A DNA stretch of 64,000 nucleotides from Longibacter salinarum (GTDB taxonomy: Bacteria; Bacteroidota; Rhodothermia; Rhodothermales; Salinibacteraceae), in the NCBI RefSeq assembly GCF_002554795.1, contig NZ_PDEQ01000001.1, positions 248,001 through 312,000 on the forward strand, written 5' to 3'. Below the pieces are notes generated by a model. That model saw only the letters and a list, made by a program, of their open reading frames with translations. It was not told the DNA's origin and did not search any database. Positions 19,939 to 30,934 of the stretch are shown in pieces (the stretch's first letter is position 1; each line of letters opens with the position of its first letter). Both the position numbers and the translations under genes were made by a program.

Positions 19939-21903
19939 ATGAGAAGTTCGCTATTATACGTTTTCGCATTCTTAATCATGATCGCCCTGCCGTCATCGGC
20001 GTTGGCACAAACGACGATTGTCGCCAACGATTTTGAACAAGGGCTTGGCACAGCAGCAGGCTGGACGACATTCGATGCCAGCGGTTCGAATAACTGGGTC
20101 GTGGACTCATATAGCGGCAACCAGTTTGCCGAGATGACCGAGTATCAAGGAGATGGCACGCACGACGACTGGTTGATTTCTCCAGAGATCAACCTAGATA
20201 ACTTTACGGGTGAGACGCTCGAATTTGCAACGGCTGTTGGATACAGCAGTGGTCAGGCACTCGAGGTCGTGATATCAACGGACTACCAACCGAGCGTTAA
20301 TTCTGATCCGGCGTCGGCCACATGGACCCCACTCTCGGCTAACTACCCTAGCAATGCCAACGGATTTAGTTCACAGGAGTCATCTGGCACGATCGACCTT
20401 TCGTCCTTCTCTGGCACGGCATACCTGGCCTGGCATTTCGACGAAACAAGCGGTCAGGGCACATGGCAACTCGATGACATTGTCGTAGAGGGATCCTCTA
20501 CGCAACCCGTTCTCAGCTTTGTGAATGAGACAGGCACGATTTCGGAGGACGGCGGGTCCACAACGATTACCGTGGAGATTCAGAACGTAAACGGATCAGG
20601 GGTAAGTGCAGATGTGGCCTTGAGTGGTCTCGGCGGTGCGGAAGCCGCCGACCTCGATGTCTACACGGCGCAGACGGTTTCATTTCCCGCATCCGCAAGT
20701 AACGGCGACACGCAATCGATCACAGTGAATGTCACGGACGACTCCGAGGTGGAAGGCGACGAGGTCGCCATATTCTCGCTTGAGAACGCGAGCGGTGCGT
20801 TCGCCAGTGCAGAAAATTTCAGTCTCACGATCACGGATAACGATGCCGTGCTCGTGATCAACGAGATTCTAGCTGATCCTGCACCGGATGCCGCTGGTGA
20901 TGCCAACGGCGATGGCACACGCGACGGCTCGGAGGATGAGTTCGTCGAGATCTATAACTCTGGAACAGAGAGCGTCGACCTTAGCGGGTATGTAATCCAA
21001 GATGGATACGGTGATCGGCATACGTTCCCAACAGGAACGACGCTGCCTGCGGAAACGGCTGTGGTCGTATTTGGTGGAGGATCGCCATCTGCCTCCATTC
21101 CGGGTGTTGTGCAGACCGCATCTAGCGGGATGCTCGGCTTCAACAACAGCGGCGATACAGTCACGTTGGTCAACGCCGGCGGAGGAACCGTTGGTACAGC
21201 GTCTTACGGGAGCGAGGGCGGAAACGATGAATCGTTGACGCGCGAACCAGACTTCACCGGTTCGTTTGTGCAGCATTCTACTGCATCCGGTTCGGGGGGC
21301 GCGTTGTTCTCGCCCGGTCGCACACTGGACGGATCGGCGCTCCCGGTCGAACTCGCGGCGTTCGATGGTCAGTTCACCGGATCGAGCATCGCGCTGACGT
21401 GGAAGACCCTCTCGGAGACGAAAAACGCCGGTTTCGAGATTCAGCACAAGGCGCCGAGCGCGTCTTCGTTCTCCGGCGTTGGCTTCGTCGAAGGAAATGG
21501 CACGACCAATCAGGCGTCGGATTACCGTTTCATTCTGAACTCGACGCAGCCTGGAACGCATACCTTCCGCCTGATGCAGGTGGATGTGGATGGAGAAGAG
21601 ACGATCCATTCCCCGATTACGGTGCAGGTCACAGGTGACCCCGTTTCGCTCACCGGCCCAAATCCGGCTACGCCGGGGGACCGTGTCGGCGTCTTTGTCC
21701 AGGTCGAAAGCACGCAGCAGGTCGATGTCGCGGTTTACAACCTGCTCGGCCAGAAGGTGGCCACCGTGTACAACGGACCGATCTCGGGCAGTAGCACGCT
21801 GAACAAGTCGCTCGATCTGTCGTCCTTCACCAGCGGTGTGTACTTCGTGCGCGTCATCGGTGAAACGGTGTCTGCGACCGAGCGGCTGTCTGTCGTGCGC
21901 TAG
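19939..21903 (+). CDS. Secreted multidomain protein with lamin-tail domain and T9SS sorting domain
   Basis: A 654-residue exported protein. In order: signal peptide (1-23, ending SSALAQ); a choice-of-anchor-J-type beta domain (about 27-185, with THDDWLISPEI and GTWQLDDIVV); a Calx-beta domain (about 190-300, ending FSLTITDND); a lamin-tail domain (about 302-440, VINEILADPAPD and EDEFVEIYNSG); a linker module beginning LPVELAAFDGQ; and a C-terminal sorting domain (GPNPATPGDRVGVFV, NLLGQKVATVYNG, SGVYFVRVIG, ending VVR). No enzymatic motif is visible. It is probably surface-attached. The downstream gene carries the same anchor-J and linker modules. A 22-bp tandem repeat starts within its last codons. 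Confidence 0.88.
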   Translation: MRSSLLYVFAFLIMIALPSSALAQTTIVANDFEQGLGTAAGWTTFDASGSNNWVVDSYSGNQFAEMTEYQGDGTHDDWLISPEINLDNFTGETLEFATAVGYSSGQALEVVISTDYQPSVNSDPASATWTPLSANYPSNANGFSSQESSGTIDLSSFSGTAYLAWHFDETSGQGTWQLDDIVVEGSSTQPVLSFVNETGTISEDGGSTTITVEIQNVNGSGVSADVALSGLGGAEAADLDVYTAQTVSFPASASNGDTQSITVNVTDDSEVEGDEVAIFSLENASGAFASAENFSLTITDNDAVLVINEILADPAPDAAGDANGDGTRDGSEDEFVEIYNSGTESVDLSGYVIQDGYGDRHTFPTGTTLPAETAVVVFGGGSPSASIPGVVQTASSGMLGFNNSGDTVTLVNAGGGTVGTASYGSEGGNDESLTREPDFTGSFVQHSTASGSGGALFSPGRTLDGSALPVELAAFDGQFTGSSIALTWKTLSETKNAGFEIQHKAPSASSFSGVGFVEGNGTTNQASDYRFILNSTQPGTHTFRLMQVDVDGEETIHSPITVQVTGDPVSLTGPNPATPGDRVGVFVQVESTQQVDVAVYNLLGQKVATVYNGPISGSSTLNKSLDLSSFTSGVYFVRVIGETVSATERLSVVR

Positions 21904-21971
21904 GCGACGCATTGTCGTGCGCTAAGCGACGCATTGTTGTACGCTAGGCGACGAAGTATCGTGCGCTAGCG
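21892..21971. repeat. 22-bp tandem repeat spanning the stop codon
   Basis: Units start at 21892, 21914, 21936 and (partial) 21959. Each contains the GTCGTGCGCTAG-like end of the upstream gene (Val-Val-Arg-stop) followed by GCGACGCATT. The copies have begun to diverge. This is a local duplication of the gene's 3' end. Confidence 0.8.
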
Positions 21972-22069: not shown

Positions 22070-22277
22070 TTCAGAGCCCGCACGGCGGAGAGCCTTCGTC
22101 GATTCAAAGGTACGGACCTCCCGTTGGTCGGTCCTTGCTGTGCGCGCAATACAAGGCTCGGTTGATCACACGCACTGTGTCTTCTGCGTGATTGCGAAAA
22201 GACCCCCTCCGGTCTGCGAATAGACATGAACGACCGCGCTTACGTTTTCGCGACCATCCGCCAAACGGGTTGTCAAC
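22070..22277. repeat. Conserved ~208-bp intergenic element, copy 1
   Basis: Aligns without large gaps to 29920-30127. Shared blocks include TTCAGA, AGCCTTC, ACGGACCT, CGGTCCT, GTGTCT, TGCGAAT, GAACGACC and CCGCCAAAC-GGTTGT. GGACC and GGTCC can pair near the left side, and ACGACC can pair with GGTTGT at the right. The nature of the element is unknown: structured RNA, MITE relic or other dispersed repeat. Confidence 0.7.
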
Positions 22278-22491: not shown

Positions 22492-24345
22492 ATGAAGCGT
22501 TTTGTCGCCTGGTGTGTCGCTCTCCTCACGATCATTCCGATTTCCGGCGCATCGGACGCGCTCGCACAGACAACCGTGTGCGACGGGCAAACCGGGTTGA
22601 CCTTACTGACGTGCGTTCAATCTGGGTATTCGATGACCAGTCCGCAGGGCTACGGTCCGGCCCGCGACATCCTCTATGGCACGATCGATTCGGACGGAAA
22701 CGAGCTGGAGGGATTCTACACGGGCTACACCATCCAGCTTGATCCCGGGCAGGATCCGTCACAGGATGCTTATGACAAAGACATTAACGCGGAGCATGTC
22801 TACCCGCAGTCGCAGGGGGCCAGCGGAAGTCCGCAGAAAGGGGACATGCACAATCTGCGTCCGACCCTCGTACAGGCCAACAGCGATCGCGGCAGTCTTC
22901 CCTTTGGAGAGAGTCCGGATTCGCAGACGAACGACTGGTATTATCTGACGACGATTACGTCGGCGCAGCCGTCACCGCAGAATATTGATCTGTACAGCGA
23001 ACGCGGTAGCGGCGTGTGGGAGCCGCGCGAGTCGGTCAAAGGCGATATCGCTCGTGCTGTATTTTACTTCTACACAATTCACCGGCAGGAGGCTAACGGC
23101 TCGTTCTTCGACGGCATGAAAGACGTGCTGCTGACGTGGCACACAAACGACCCGGTGACGCAGGTGGAGTTGGATCGAAGCGCAGCTATAGCCAGTCACC
23201 AGGGCAACGAAAACCCGTTCGTCCTTGACGAAACGCTCGCAGACCGGCTGTACAGTGGGGACGGCGGCTCCGATCCGAATCTAATCACATTGATCGACGA
23301 GGACTTCGAAAGCACGCAGTTCGACGCGGCCTGGGAAACCGTCAGCGACGGGGGAAGCAACGACTGGATTGTCGATGAGCATAACGGCGACCACTTCGCC
23401 GAGATCACGGAGTTCCAGGGTTCTGGCTCGCACGACGACTGGCTCATCATGCCGGAAATCGACTTCGATGCTCAGGAAGACGAGCAATTCTCCTTCGACA
23501 CCGTTGCCGGCTACCGGTCGGGAGATGCTCTTTCAGTCCGGATCTCGACCGATTACGACGGCTCCGGCAATCCGTCATCCGCCACGTGGACCGAGCTCAA
23601 TGTGACGCTCAGTTCGCATCAGGGAGAGTACTACGCATCTGCGCCGACGGGGTCGGGCATCGTGGATTTGTCCTCGATTCAGGGGACCGGCCACATTGCC
23701 TTCCACTTCGTCCAAACGGCCAGTGACTACGGAACGTGGCAGGTCGACAATGTTCTTCTGCAGGCAGCCAACCCCATCCCTGTCGAACTTGCATGGATGC
23801 GGGTCCGACCAGACGGGATGGATGCTGCGTCCGTCGAGTGGGCAACGCTCACGGAAACCAATAATGCCGGGTTCGACGTGCTGCACCGGGCGCCGGGCAT
23901 AGAAAGATACCGCGCCGTCGCCTCGGTCAACGGCGCCGGCACGACGACGGAGATGCAGCGCTACAACGTGCAACTGACAGGGCTCGATGCGGGCACGCAC
24001 AGCATTCGCCTCCGACAGGTTGACCTCGACGGCACGGCCACGCTCACGGCTCCGGTCGAGGTGTCGGTTGCGGGCTCGGAGGCGGTTCAACTGGAGGGGC
24101 CGAGTCCAATGCGCGCCGGGCAAACCGCAGCGGTCGTCGTTCGACCCACGGCCACGGGACCCGTTACCGTTGAGATGTTCGACATCATGGGGCGGCGCGT
24201 CCGGACGCTGCACCGCGGCACCGCGCAGGAAGGGAGCAGGGTGAATGTGAAGCTGGATGCGAAGGGACTCGCAAGTGGTTCTTACTTTGTTCGCGTTACC
24301 GGTGGAGGGCTGATGGAAACGATGCGCGTGCCGGTCGTTCGGTAG
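22492..24345 (+). CDS. Secreted endonuclease I with T9SS sorting domain
   Basis: A 617-residue exported nuclease. A signal peptide (1-26) is followed by an endonuclease I (His-Me finger) domain to about residue 250, with NAEHVYPQS, KGDMHNLRPT and NSDRGSLPFG; the His of EHVYPQS is the likely general base and the Asn/His residues of the following motifs bind the metal. A choice-of-anchor-J domain (about 265-420, SHDDWLIMPEI, YGTWQVDNVLL), a linker module (IPVELAWMRV, TETNNAGFDVLHRAP) and a C-terminal sorting domain (PMRAGQTAAVVV, DIMGRRVRTL, GSYFVRVTG, ending PVVR) follow. It probably degrades extracellular DNA for nutrients. The C-terminal half is paralogous to the upstream T9SS protein. Confidence 0.92.
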   Translation: MKRFVAWCVALLTIIPISGASDALAQTTVCDGQTGLTLLTCVQSGYSMTSPQGYGPARDILYGTIDSDGNELEGFYTGYTIQLDPGQDPSQDAYDKDINAEHVYPQSQGASGSPQKGDMHNLRPTLVQANSDRGSLPFGESPDSQTNDWYYLTTITSAQPSPQNIDLYSERGSGVWEPRESVKGDIARAVFYFYTIHRQEANGSFFDGMKDVLLTWHTNDPVTQVELDRSAAIASHQGNENPFVLDETLADRLYSGDGGSDPNLITLIDEDFESTQFDAAWETVSDGGSNDWIVDEHNGDHFAEITEFQGSGSHDDWLIMPEIDFDAQEDEQFSFDTVAGYRSGDALSVRISTDYDGSGNPSSATWTELNVTLSSHQGEYYASAPTGSGIVDLSSIQGTGHIAFHFVQTASDYGTWQVDNVLLQAANPIPVELAWMRVRPDGMDAASVEWATLTETNNAGFDVLHRAPGIERYRAVASVNGAGTTTEMQRYNVQLTGLDAGTHSIRLRQVDLDGTATLTAPVEVSVAGSEAVQLEGPSPMRAGQTAAVVVRPTATGPVTVEMFDIMGRRVRTLHRGTAQEGSRVNVKLDAKGLASGSYFVRVTGGGLMETMRVPVVR

Positions 24346-28396: not shown

Positions 28397-29662
28397 TTAC
28401 CAACCGATTCGGCGTGTCGTCTCTTCTTCTTTCTCTTCTTTCTTGCGCTCCTTCGGGGGATTGGAGGCGACGGGACGTGCGGGCGCATCGATCTGTGCTC
28501 CGTCGAACGAGCGGATGTCGACGCCCGAGTAGTAGAAGGAAAGCATATCCTGATAGTCGCGCCCCTGGTCGGACATCTCGTGGATGCCCCACTGGCTCAG
28601 GCCGACGCCATGGCCGAAGCCCCGACCACTGAAGCGATAGGTGTTTCCGTTGCGTGAGGCATCGAACCATGTACTCTTCAGGTCAGCATCAGGCAGCCGG
28701 CGTGTGATAGCCAGTCGAAAGTTGTTGGCGCGAACGGTCATGCGGCCGCCCGGCGTAAGGAGCGTGACGGTTTTGAGGCGGCCCTCTGAGCTGCGTTTCC
28801 CCAGGACGAAGCCGGTAATCCGAGTCCCAAACTCGTTCGACAGCGCGGAAAGCAGTTGAGAGCTCGGGACCGAGGTGCTCCACCTGTGATGGGGCGAGTT
28901 CCGGTCGTACGGGTCGCGCTTGCCGCGGAGATACGGGAGAACGTCTTTCGCATCCCACACGTCCTCGTTATTCGCCGTATGACCGCCACTGGAGGAGAAG
29001 TAGACGGCTTCGATCAGGCTGCCGTCGTAGGTGAGTACCTGGCCGGCGGTTGCCTGTGTAGCGCGTCTCGAGGTTGGCGTGATGGCTCGGACGCCGCGAT
29101 AGACCTGGGAGACGGTGTTGTCGACGTGATCGTAGTCGCCCGAGTTGAACTTATCGGATGCACGAACGCCGTACGTTCTCGCGACAACGGCCATTGCCTT
29201 CGACCCCTCGAGATCCTTGAACCCATATTCTGCGGCGACGACGCTCGCCACGTAGTCGTCGAGCGGGGCGTGGTTGACCAACTGCAGGGACGATCCGTCC
29301 GGTTCAACATGAAGCGGGCCGGTGTACGCACGCGTCACATCGCCGCTCGTCAGGGTCCACGTAACACCCTCGTCGGGCTGAATGTCGAGCGCCGAGGCGT
29401 AGATGCCGTCGGCCGACCGCTCGATGGCCACCTCGGGTCCGCGCAACGAGAGGGTTGCAGACTCGCCGGGGCGCAGGCGCATGACCGGAGAGGAGGTGCT
29501 GGGCAGGTGGATCCGAAGATCGCCTCCGGTCGCTTTCACGCTGACAGATGTGGGTTTCTGGCTGCCGAGCACGCGCACTCGCACGTGAGGGTCGGATTGC
29601 GCCGCGGTGTCCTTGACACAGAAGGACAGCAGTAAGACGGCGATACATACGCGAACGATCAT
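28397..29662 (-). CDS. SpoIID/LytB domain protein
   Basis: A 421-residue exported protein with signal peptide (MIVRVCIAVLLLSFCVKDTAAQ) and a SpoIID domain: LDDYVASVVAAEYGF, EGSKAMAVVARTYGV, HVDNTVSQVYRGV, VYFSSSGGHTANNEDVW and FSGRGFGHGVGLSQWGIHEM. SpoIID is a lytic transglycosylase acting on denuded glycan strands in Bacillus engulfment; in non-sporulating bacteria the relatives are assumed to act on septal peptidoglycan. The catalytic Glu in VAAEYG is retained. The C-terminus is a lysine/glutamate-rich tail. The start is chosen for the signal peptide; the frame opens 20 codons upstream. Confidence 0.88.
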   Translation of the reverse strand: MIVRVCIAVLLLSFCVKDTAAQSDPHVRVRVLGSQKPTSVSVKATGGDLRIHLPSTSSPVMRLRPGESATLSLRGPEVAIERSADGIYASALDIQPDEGVTWTLTSGDVTRAYTGPLHVEPDGSSLQLVNHAPLDDYVASVVAAEYGFKDLEGSKAMAVVARTYGVRASDKFNSGDYDHVDNTVSQVYRGVRAITPTSRRATQATAGQVLTYDGSLIEAVYFSSSGGHTANNEDVWDAKDVLPYLRGKRDPYDRNSPHHRWSTSVPSSQLLSALSNEFGTRITGFVLGKRSSEGRLKTVTLLTPGGRMTVRANNFRLAITRRLPDADLKSTWFDASRNGNTYRFSGRGFGHGVGLSQWGIHEMSDQGRDYQDMLSFYYSGVDIRSFDGAQIDAPARPVASNPPKERKKEEKEEETTRRIGW

Positions 29663-30157
29663 GGCGTCGGGGAGACGTGAAAAACAGGACAACAGGTTTC
29701 GGCTGAATTCGGCTCGTGCCATGTTTGGTATGCGGCGTCATGGCCACCGGCGGTGCACAATGTACAGGCATCTACGGCACGTCCCGCGTGCTGTTGCGTT
29801 CGCATCAGCAGTCGACCGATCTGTAGGCTACAGCCGCGATCGGATCCGGGAACGTCACATCCCAACGCCCGAAAGTGATTTTCATCCTCGGTGTTGGCGC
29901 CCGTGTTGGTCGTACTCGTTTCAGAACCTGTTTGGCGCCAGCCTTCAGCCATCCAAAAGGACGGACCTTCCTAGGGGCGGTCCTCGGGCCGCGTGTCGCC
30001 CAGGCCTCGTTCGTTTCGCGCACCGTGTCTATGGCACACGTGCCATAGGATTACGATCAGGCTTGCGAATCGACAGGAACGACCCCACTTGCGTTTTTGA
30101 GACCCAGCCGCCAAACAGGTTGTTGACTTCTCTTATTCTAATCAATCTCAGCCTTTC
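29663..30157. other. Divergent upstream region containing element copy 2
   Basis: Upstream of the SpoIID-like gene (minus) and tatD (plus). A CTGTAG-G-CTACAG palindrome lies near 29819-29831. The 208-bp element occupies the tatD-proximal part. Confidence 0.55.
29920..30127. repeat. Conserved ~208-bp intergenic element, copy 2
   Basis: Homologous to 22070-22277 over its full length. Here the ends carry perfect 13-bp inverted repeats, AACCTGTTTGGCG (29925-29937) and CGCCAAACAGGTT (30109-30121). Inside, CTATGGCAC and GTGCCATAG form a near-perfect palindrome (30029-30048). It ends 30 bases before the tatD start. Confidence 0.7.
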
Positions 30158-30934
30158 ATGCTCATCGATACCCATGCCCACCTGTACGTAGATGCGTTTG
30201 ATGATGACCGCGACGCCGTTATTGAACGGGCAAAACAGTCGGGCGTCGAACAGATCGTTATGCCGGCCATCGGCGTTTCCTCGATTCAGCAGGCGATCGA
30301 TTTAGCAGATCGGCACGAGGGACTGTATGTCATGGCGGCGCTCCACCCGTCGGAGGTGAAAGGTGCCACGGATGAGGATCTTGAAGCGATTCGGTCGTGG
30401 TGCGAGGATCCCCGTATTGTCGCAGTGGGGGAAAGCGGTCTCGATTATTACTGGGATCGTTCATACGACGACAAGCAGAAGGAGTATTTTCGCTGGCATA
30501 TCCAATTGGCGATCGAGACGGACCTTCCGCTCATCATTCACAATCGGGAGGCGACGGAAGACGTTCTACGTATCCTGGAGGAGGAAAGGGAGGCATCGGA
30601 AACCCCAGAGCGCCTGCGCGGCATTTTGCACTGTTTTGTCGATCCGCCCGACGTTGCCGAGCGAGCGTGGGATCTCGGGTTCTACGTCGGACTCGGTGGA
30701 ATCCTCACGTTTTCGAACAGCGAGGTCGACACGTTCGCGGCCGACATCCCGCTGGAGCACATCGTTGTCGAAACGGATAGTCCGTATCTCGCTCCCGAAC
30801 CCAACCGCGGCGACCGCAATGAGCCTGCGTACGTCCGCCATGTTGCTGAGCGCCTTGCAGACGTCAAGGGGCGATCCTTCGAGGATGTTGCGCGCATCAC
30901 GACGGAGAACGCTCGCACGATCTACGATTTGTAA
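30158..30934 (+). CDS. tatD: TatD family metal-dependent hydrolase
   Basis: A 258-residue TIM-barrel hydrolase. Metal ligands appear in order: DTHAHL at the N-terminus, GESGLDYYW, HNREATED, HCFVDPP and ETDSPYLAPEPNRG. Length fits the family (about 255-265). TatD proteins are 3'-5' DNases or RNases linked to DNA repair and fragmentation. It is preceded by the 208-bp element and followed by the dnaK terminator in the opposite direction. Confidence 0.95.
   Translation: MLIDTHAHLYVDAFDDDRDAVIERAKQSGVEQIVMPAIGVSSIQQAIDLADRHEGLYVMAALHPSEVKGATDEDLEAIRSWCEDPRIVAVGESGLDYYWDRSYDDKQKEYFRWHIQLAIETDLPLIIHNREATEDVLRILEEEREASETPERLRGILHCFVDPPDVAERAWDLGFYVGLGGILTFSNSEVDTFAADIPLEHIVVETDSPYLAPEPNRGDRNEPAYVRHVAERLADVKGRSFEDVARITTENARTIYDL

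Follow-up and report, generated by a model that had tools for sequence, protein, structure and literature searches.

Two related elements in the window

The window, by which we mean the whole 64,000-nucleotide stretch of Longibacter salinarum DNA that was analysed, contains two 199-bp elements that are copies of a non-coding miniature transposon (MITE). The second lies between a gene for a SpoIID-domain protein and a gene for a TatD-type DNase. The features of both loci are as follows.

22071..22073, no strand: left target-site duplicate of copy 1, TCA
22074..22272, plus strand: MITE copy 1, 199 bp, with a degenerate left end (placed by the family alignment)
22074..22089, plus strand: left terminal inverted repeat of copy 1, decayed, GAGCCCGCACGGCGGA
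22257..22272, minus strand: right terminal inverted repeat of copy 1, TCCGCCAAACGGGTTG
22273..22275, no strand: right target-site duplicate of copy 1, TCA
28397-29722, minus strand: SpoIID-domain gene beside copy 2
29921..29923, no strand: left TNA flank of copy 2, TCA
29924..30122, plus strand: MITE copy 2, 199 bp, between the SpoIID-domain and TatD-type DNase genes
29924..29937, plus strand: left terminal inverted repeat of copy 2, GAACCTGTTTGGCG
30109..30122, minus strand: right terminal inverted repeat of copy 2, CGCCAAACAGGTTG
30123-30125, no strand: right flank of copy 2, TTG
30158-30934, plus strand: TatD-type DNase gene beside copy 2

The first-pass annotation had described two stretches, 22070-22277 and 29920-30127, similar from end to end and free of large gaps. 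Alignment confirmed this similarity and located the elements there, but with borders a few bases narrower (22074-22272 and 29924-30122). What had been overlooked is that the termini of each element form an inverted-repeat pair: in copy 2, AACCTGTTTGGCG (29925-29937) can pair with 30109-30121 without a mismatch. The two copies are members of two different subfamilies.

Copy 1 has a tandem array and a protein-coding gene as neighbours. At 21891-21969, at and beyond the 3' end of the gene at 19939-21903, a 22-bp unit (TGTCGTGCGCTAGGCGACGCAT) is repeated 3.6 times in tandem. The protein encoded downstream (22492-24345) carries an Endonuclease_1 domain and a Por_Secre_tail-like C-terminal region (residues ~425-617), a region found again in numerous proteins of related genomes. 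Because the protein matches many paralogues through this region, the orthologous surroundings of copy 1 could not be compared.

A dispersed family with inverted ends

The genome comprises 4.4 Mb in 22 contigs, and base-by-base searches covered 1.6 Mb of it (36%; contig C1 and most of C2). With the window copies as queries, at least 49 distinct genomic places were found together, mostly at 70–85% identity. Since either stretch alone retrieves dozens more genomic copies, chance similarity between the two is excluded. The copies are dispersed and not arrayed. A profile built from 45 full-length copies detected 37 copies or fragments in the 1.6 Mb and none in the same sequence reversed.

Once reoriented, the copies have common, mutually inverted termini, GAACCTGTTTGGCGGA...TCCGCCAAACAGGTTC (or G at the last position). 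Matches to a 15-base terminal core with at most two mismatches numbered 252 genome-wide, compared with 4 for the reversed control, and across 48 copies the 15 end pairs of the terminal inverted repeats showed standard pairing in 89.6% of cells. The family is about 200 bp long, with a GC content of 57%. A coding origin was rejected because no single frame is kept open across most copies; open frames overall amounted to 51 of 288 in the copies, above the 24 in base-shuffled copies. At C1:688767-689070, two partial copies adjoin in opposite orientation and form a palindrome-like pair.

Target duplication and empty sites

Directly outside the element ends lies a TNA trinucleotide. For 27 of the 49 copies the two 3-bp flanks match exactly, whereas 10,000 shuffles gave 12.0 such copies on average and never more than 22. 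The free middle base of TNA agrees in 35 of 49 copies (17.4 in shuffles). Nearly half of the copies are without an exact duplication, as expected for old copies. Copy 2 is one of these: its flanks, TCA and TTG, have either lost the duplication or never matched.

Several copies are inserted within another, outer repeat. We excised the element by script and compared the joined flanks with unoccupied copies of the outer repeat. Five occupied copies read, for example, TTTCA|TCAACGG, and the sequence of six unoccupied copies is TTTCAACGG or a close variant of it; in one direct comparison, the occupied site GTTTCA|TCAACGG has two TNA trinucleotides and the unoccupied site GTTTCAACGG has one. These clean empty sites therefore demonstrate insertion with a 3-bp duplication. 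Some near-identical copies with common flanks probably multiplied along with the outer repeat and not by separate transposition.

A second dispersed repeat of ~180-240 bp with ends ATACGTTTTCCGAATG / CGAAACGGTAT (for example C1:855684-855861 and C2:322372-322549) is a frequent host of insertions, and may itself be a MITE with TA targets. A third repeat (CAAATCCAAATGACAATGTCGGGGTCA...) is found in the flanks of L007, L008, L011, L012 and L019; in L019 the MITE is reversed and sits at a different position of the repeat.

Taken together, the ends, the target duplication, the empty sites, the lack of an encoded protein and the many copies identify the family as a MITE. Of the possibilities raised by the first-pass annotation, an old MITE family is the one supported; the inverted ends, the duplicated TNA, the empty sites and the dispersal of copies in several internal-deletion sizes all speak for it. 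Copies 1 and 2 are decayed copies of this element, not a conserved RNA or gene switch.

Conserved blocks and the structured-RNA alternative

The two window copies share sequence blocks and contain a possible GGACC/GGTCC hairpin that is paired in 91.9% of cells, features that could suggest a multi-copy structured RNA under selection, either a small RNA or a riboswitch-like leader. The hairpin loses its force on comparison with controls: pairing is retained in 91.4% of cells after shuffling, its covariation score is matched by 106 of 500 shuffles, and slid versions score equally well. RNAalifold predicted 0 pairs from 48 copies, folding of four single copies gave z-scores of -0.62 to 0.51, equal to shuffles, and Rfam returned no match at two thresholds. 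Covarying base pairs, which had been proposed as a check, were seen at control level only. Among the 200 strongest column correlations, 33 were mostly complementary, below the 20% background rate; strong column correlations mark subfamilies, not base pairs. The neighbouring genes also show no preferred orientation. With no consensus pairs, covariation and folding at shuffle level and no Rfam match, the structured-RNA proposal is already contradicted and almost certainly wrong.

The blocks themselves follow from the subfamily structure. In the full set of 48 copies, agreement with the consensus is 0.90-0.94 for the ends and for columns 17-27 and 41-70, and 0.74-0.80 elsewhere. Within one subfamily of 11 copies, the whole element is about evenly conserved (0.84-0.92). 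Dispersed substitutions around kept blocks had been read as a possible sign of selection; the blocks are instead what two subfamilies share, and decay within a subfamily is even. This pattern is expected if master elements were constrained while mobile and inserted copies then decayed evenly.

Columns 17-27 (CAGCCTTCGGC) and 41-70 (CGGACCT...GGTCGGTCCTCG) are conserved across subfamilies to the same degree as the inverted ends. As a tentative and rather unlikely extension, the transposase or a host factor might bind there, in which case a single missing transposase would have driven several otherwise different MITE families across genera of the bacterial family.

Genomic context and the regulatory alternative

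Both window copies do lie upstream of plus-strand genes, as first described, but no preference for upstream position or orientation is seen over the 34 copies that a simple gene call placed relative to genes. Counts for the four neighbouring-gene arrangements are 8, 7, 12 and 7. Location outside genes is the general rule (29 of 34 copies, compared with 10% of random stretches).

The TatD start codon lies 35 bp beyond the end of copy 2, and MITEs can be a source of regulatory signals (reviewed in PMC10969869). The two window copies could accordingly have been co-opted to regulate the downstream genes, for instance as a promoter or terminator. Against this, nine relatives, among them a congener, retain the SpoIID-TatD gene pair, and the element is absent from the orthologous gap in all nine, which makes the conserved regulatory role once suggested for copy 2 unlikely. 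Copies also occur in all orientations relative to genes, and decay within subfamilies is even. We consider co-option highly improbable. The empty gaps fit insertion of copy 2 in its own lineage after the split from these relatives.

Sister elements and copies in relatives

Elements of 118, 138, 183 and 223 bp are delimited by the same ends. The 118-bp element is an internal deletion of the present family; the other three have other interiors. Two 183-bp elements (C2:364400-364582 and C2:655406-655588), different in interior from the present family, are 98.4% identical and among the youngest copies seen, indicating more recent movement of this sister family. Another genus (genome G006) has a 225-bp relative of the 183-bp family, 79% identical.

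Full-length copies of the present family also occur in the same-genus genome G001, where at least two (L061 and L063) were identified. An exact-motif scan of GTDB contigs gave two matches in a Bacteroidetes MAG from the Great Salt Lake, which is probably G001 itself, as the coordinates match. Other records gave three single matches, where ~0.5 were expected; these are probably chance.

Probable mobilisation by an IS5-type transposase

TNA duplication is a mark of IS5-type elements. In related genomes, IS427-type insertion sequences (L198, L199, L203, L213, L214 and L215 were compared) have TNA duplications and GAG-N-CTGTTTG-like ends, for example GAGGCTGTTTGGTAAG and GAGCCTGTATTCAAAG. The present family, with TNA duplication and GA..CTGTTTG-type ends, shows the pattern of the IS427 subgroup. 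On the basis of the element ends and the TNA duplication, we infer that an IS5/IS427-type transposase acted in trans. Such an enzyme (an IS5-family, IS427-type transposase with DUF4096 and DDE domains) probably recognised the GAACCTGTTTGGCGG ends and would have used TNA trinucleotides as insertion targets, with duplication of each target. Spread as several subfamilies would have followed, each inserted copy decaying evenly thereafter.

No autonomous element with the same ends was recognised in searches with PF01609, PF13340 and PF13359 or in an end-pair scan of 1.6 Mb (36% of the genome). The sole complete IS427-type transposase gene found in the genome, L065 (DUF4096 and DDE domains), has ends, GCTCTGTTTGAAAAGT, that differ from those of the MITE, and it is not supported as a partner. 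The lack of a recognised autonomous partner with the same ends could favour movement by another route (e.g., as a REP-type, integron or phage-borne repeat) and not by an IS5-type transposase. That route is very unlikely, given that the TNA duplication and long inverted ends match IS427-type insertion sequences of sister genomes and that the copies are dispersed rather than arrayed. The best reading, to which we assign a probability of about 0.93, is that the family is an IS5/IS427-type MITE, mobilised in trans by a transposase that is now missing or unrecognised.

Relation to known elements and significance

MITEs of the IS5 family (IS427 subgroup) are likewise short and non-coding, with inverted ends starting GA..CTGTTTG and a TNA target duplication; they are also mostly intergenic, multi-copy and accompanied by internal-deletion variants. 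The present family differs from them in being GC-rich, in lacking a stable fold and in having no recognised parent insertion sequence with the same ends. Prokaryotic MITEs are typically AT-rich with stable stem-loop transcripts (PMC10969869). Neither trait is seen here, where GC content is 57% and folding equals that of shuffles; these traits are not required for a MITE.

By description, the family also resembles elements from other hosts. Chunjie, an intergenic element of 178-235 bp that is bordered by direct repeats and present in tens of copies, intact as well as partial (PMC10969869), is alike in size, copy number, border repeats and location. MITEAba12, a non-autonomous IS-derived element (PMC6382973), is alike in that respect. 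ERIC repeats, also classed as a MITE (PMC10969869), are alike as mostly intergenic multi-copy elements; target duplication and empty sites are clear in the present family, a point of difference from ERIC. No description of the family was found in the literature searched, which does not prove that none exists. We regard it as a new family of a known kind.

The family provides a clean example of a MITE from a little-studied bacterial family, one in which nested empty sites prove insertion. It also carries a warning: two divergent copies of an old transposon can mimic an RNA under selection if attention is confined to the blocks that their subfamilies have in common. Annotation as a mobile repeat is therefore advisable and would avoid a mistaken regulatory-RNA label.
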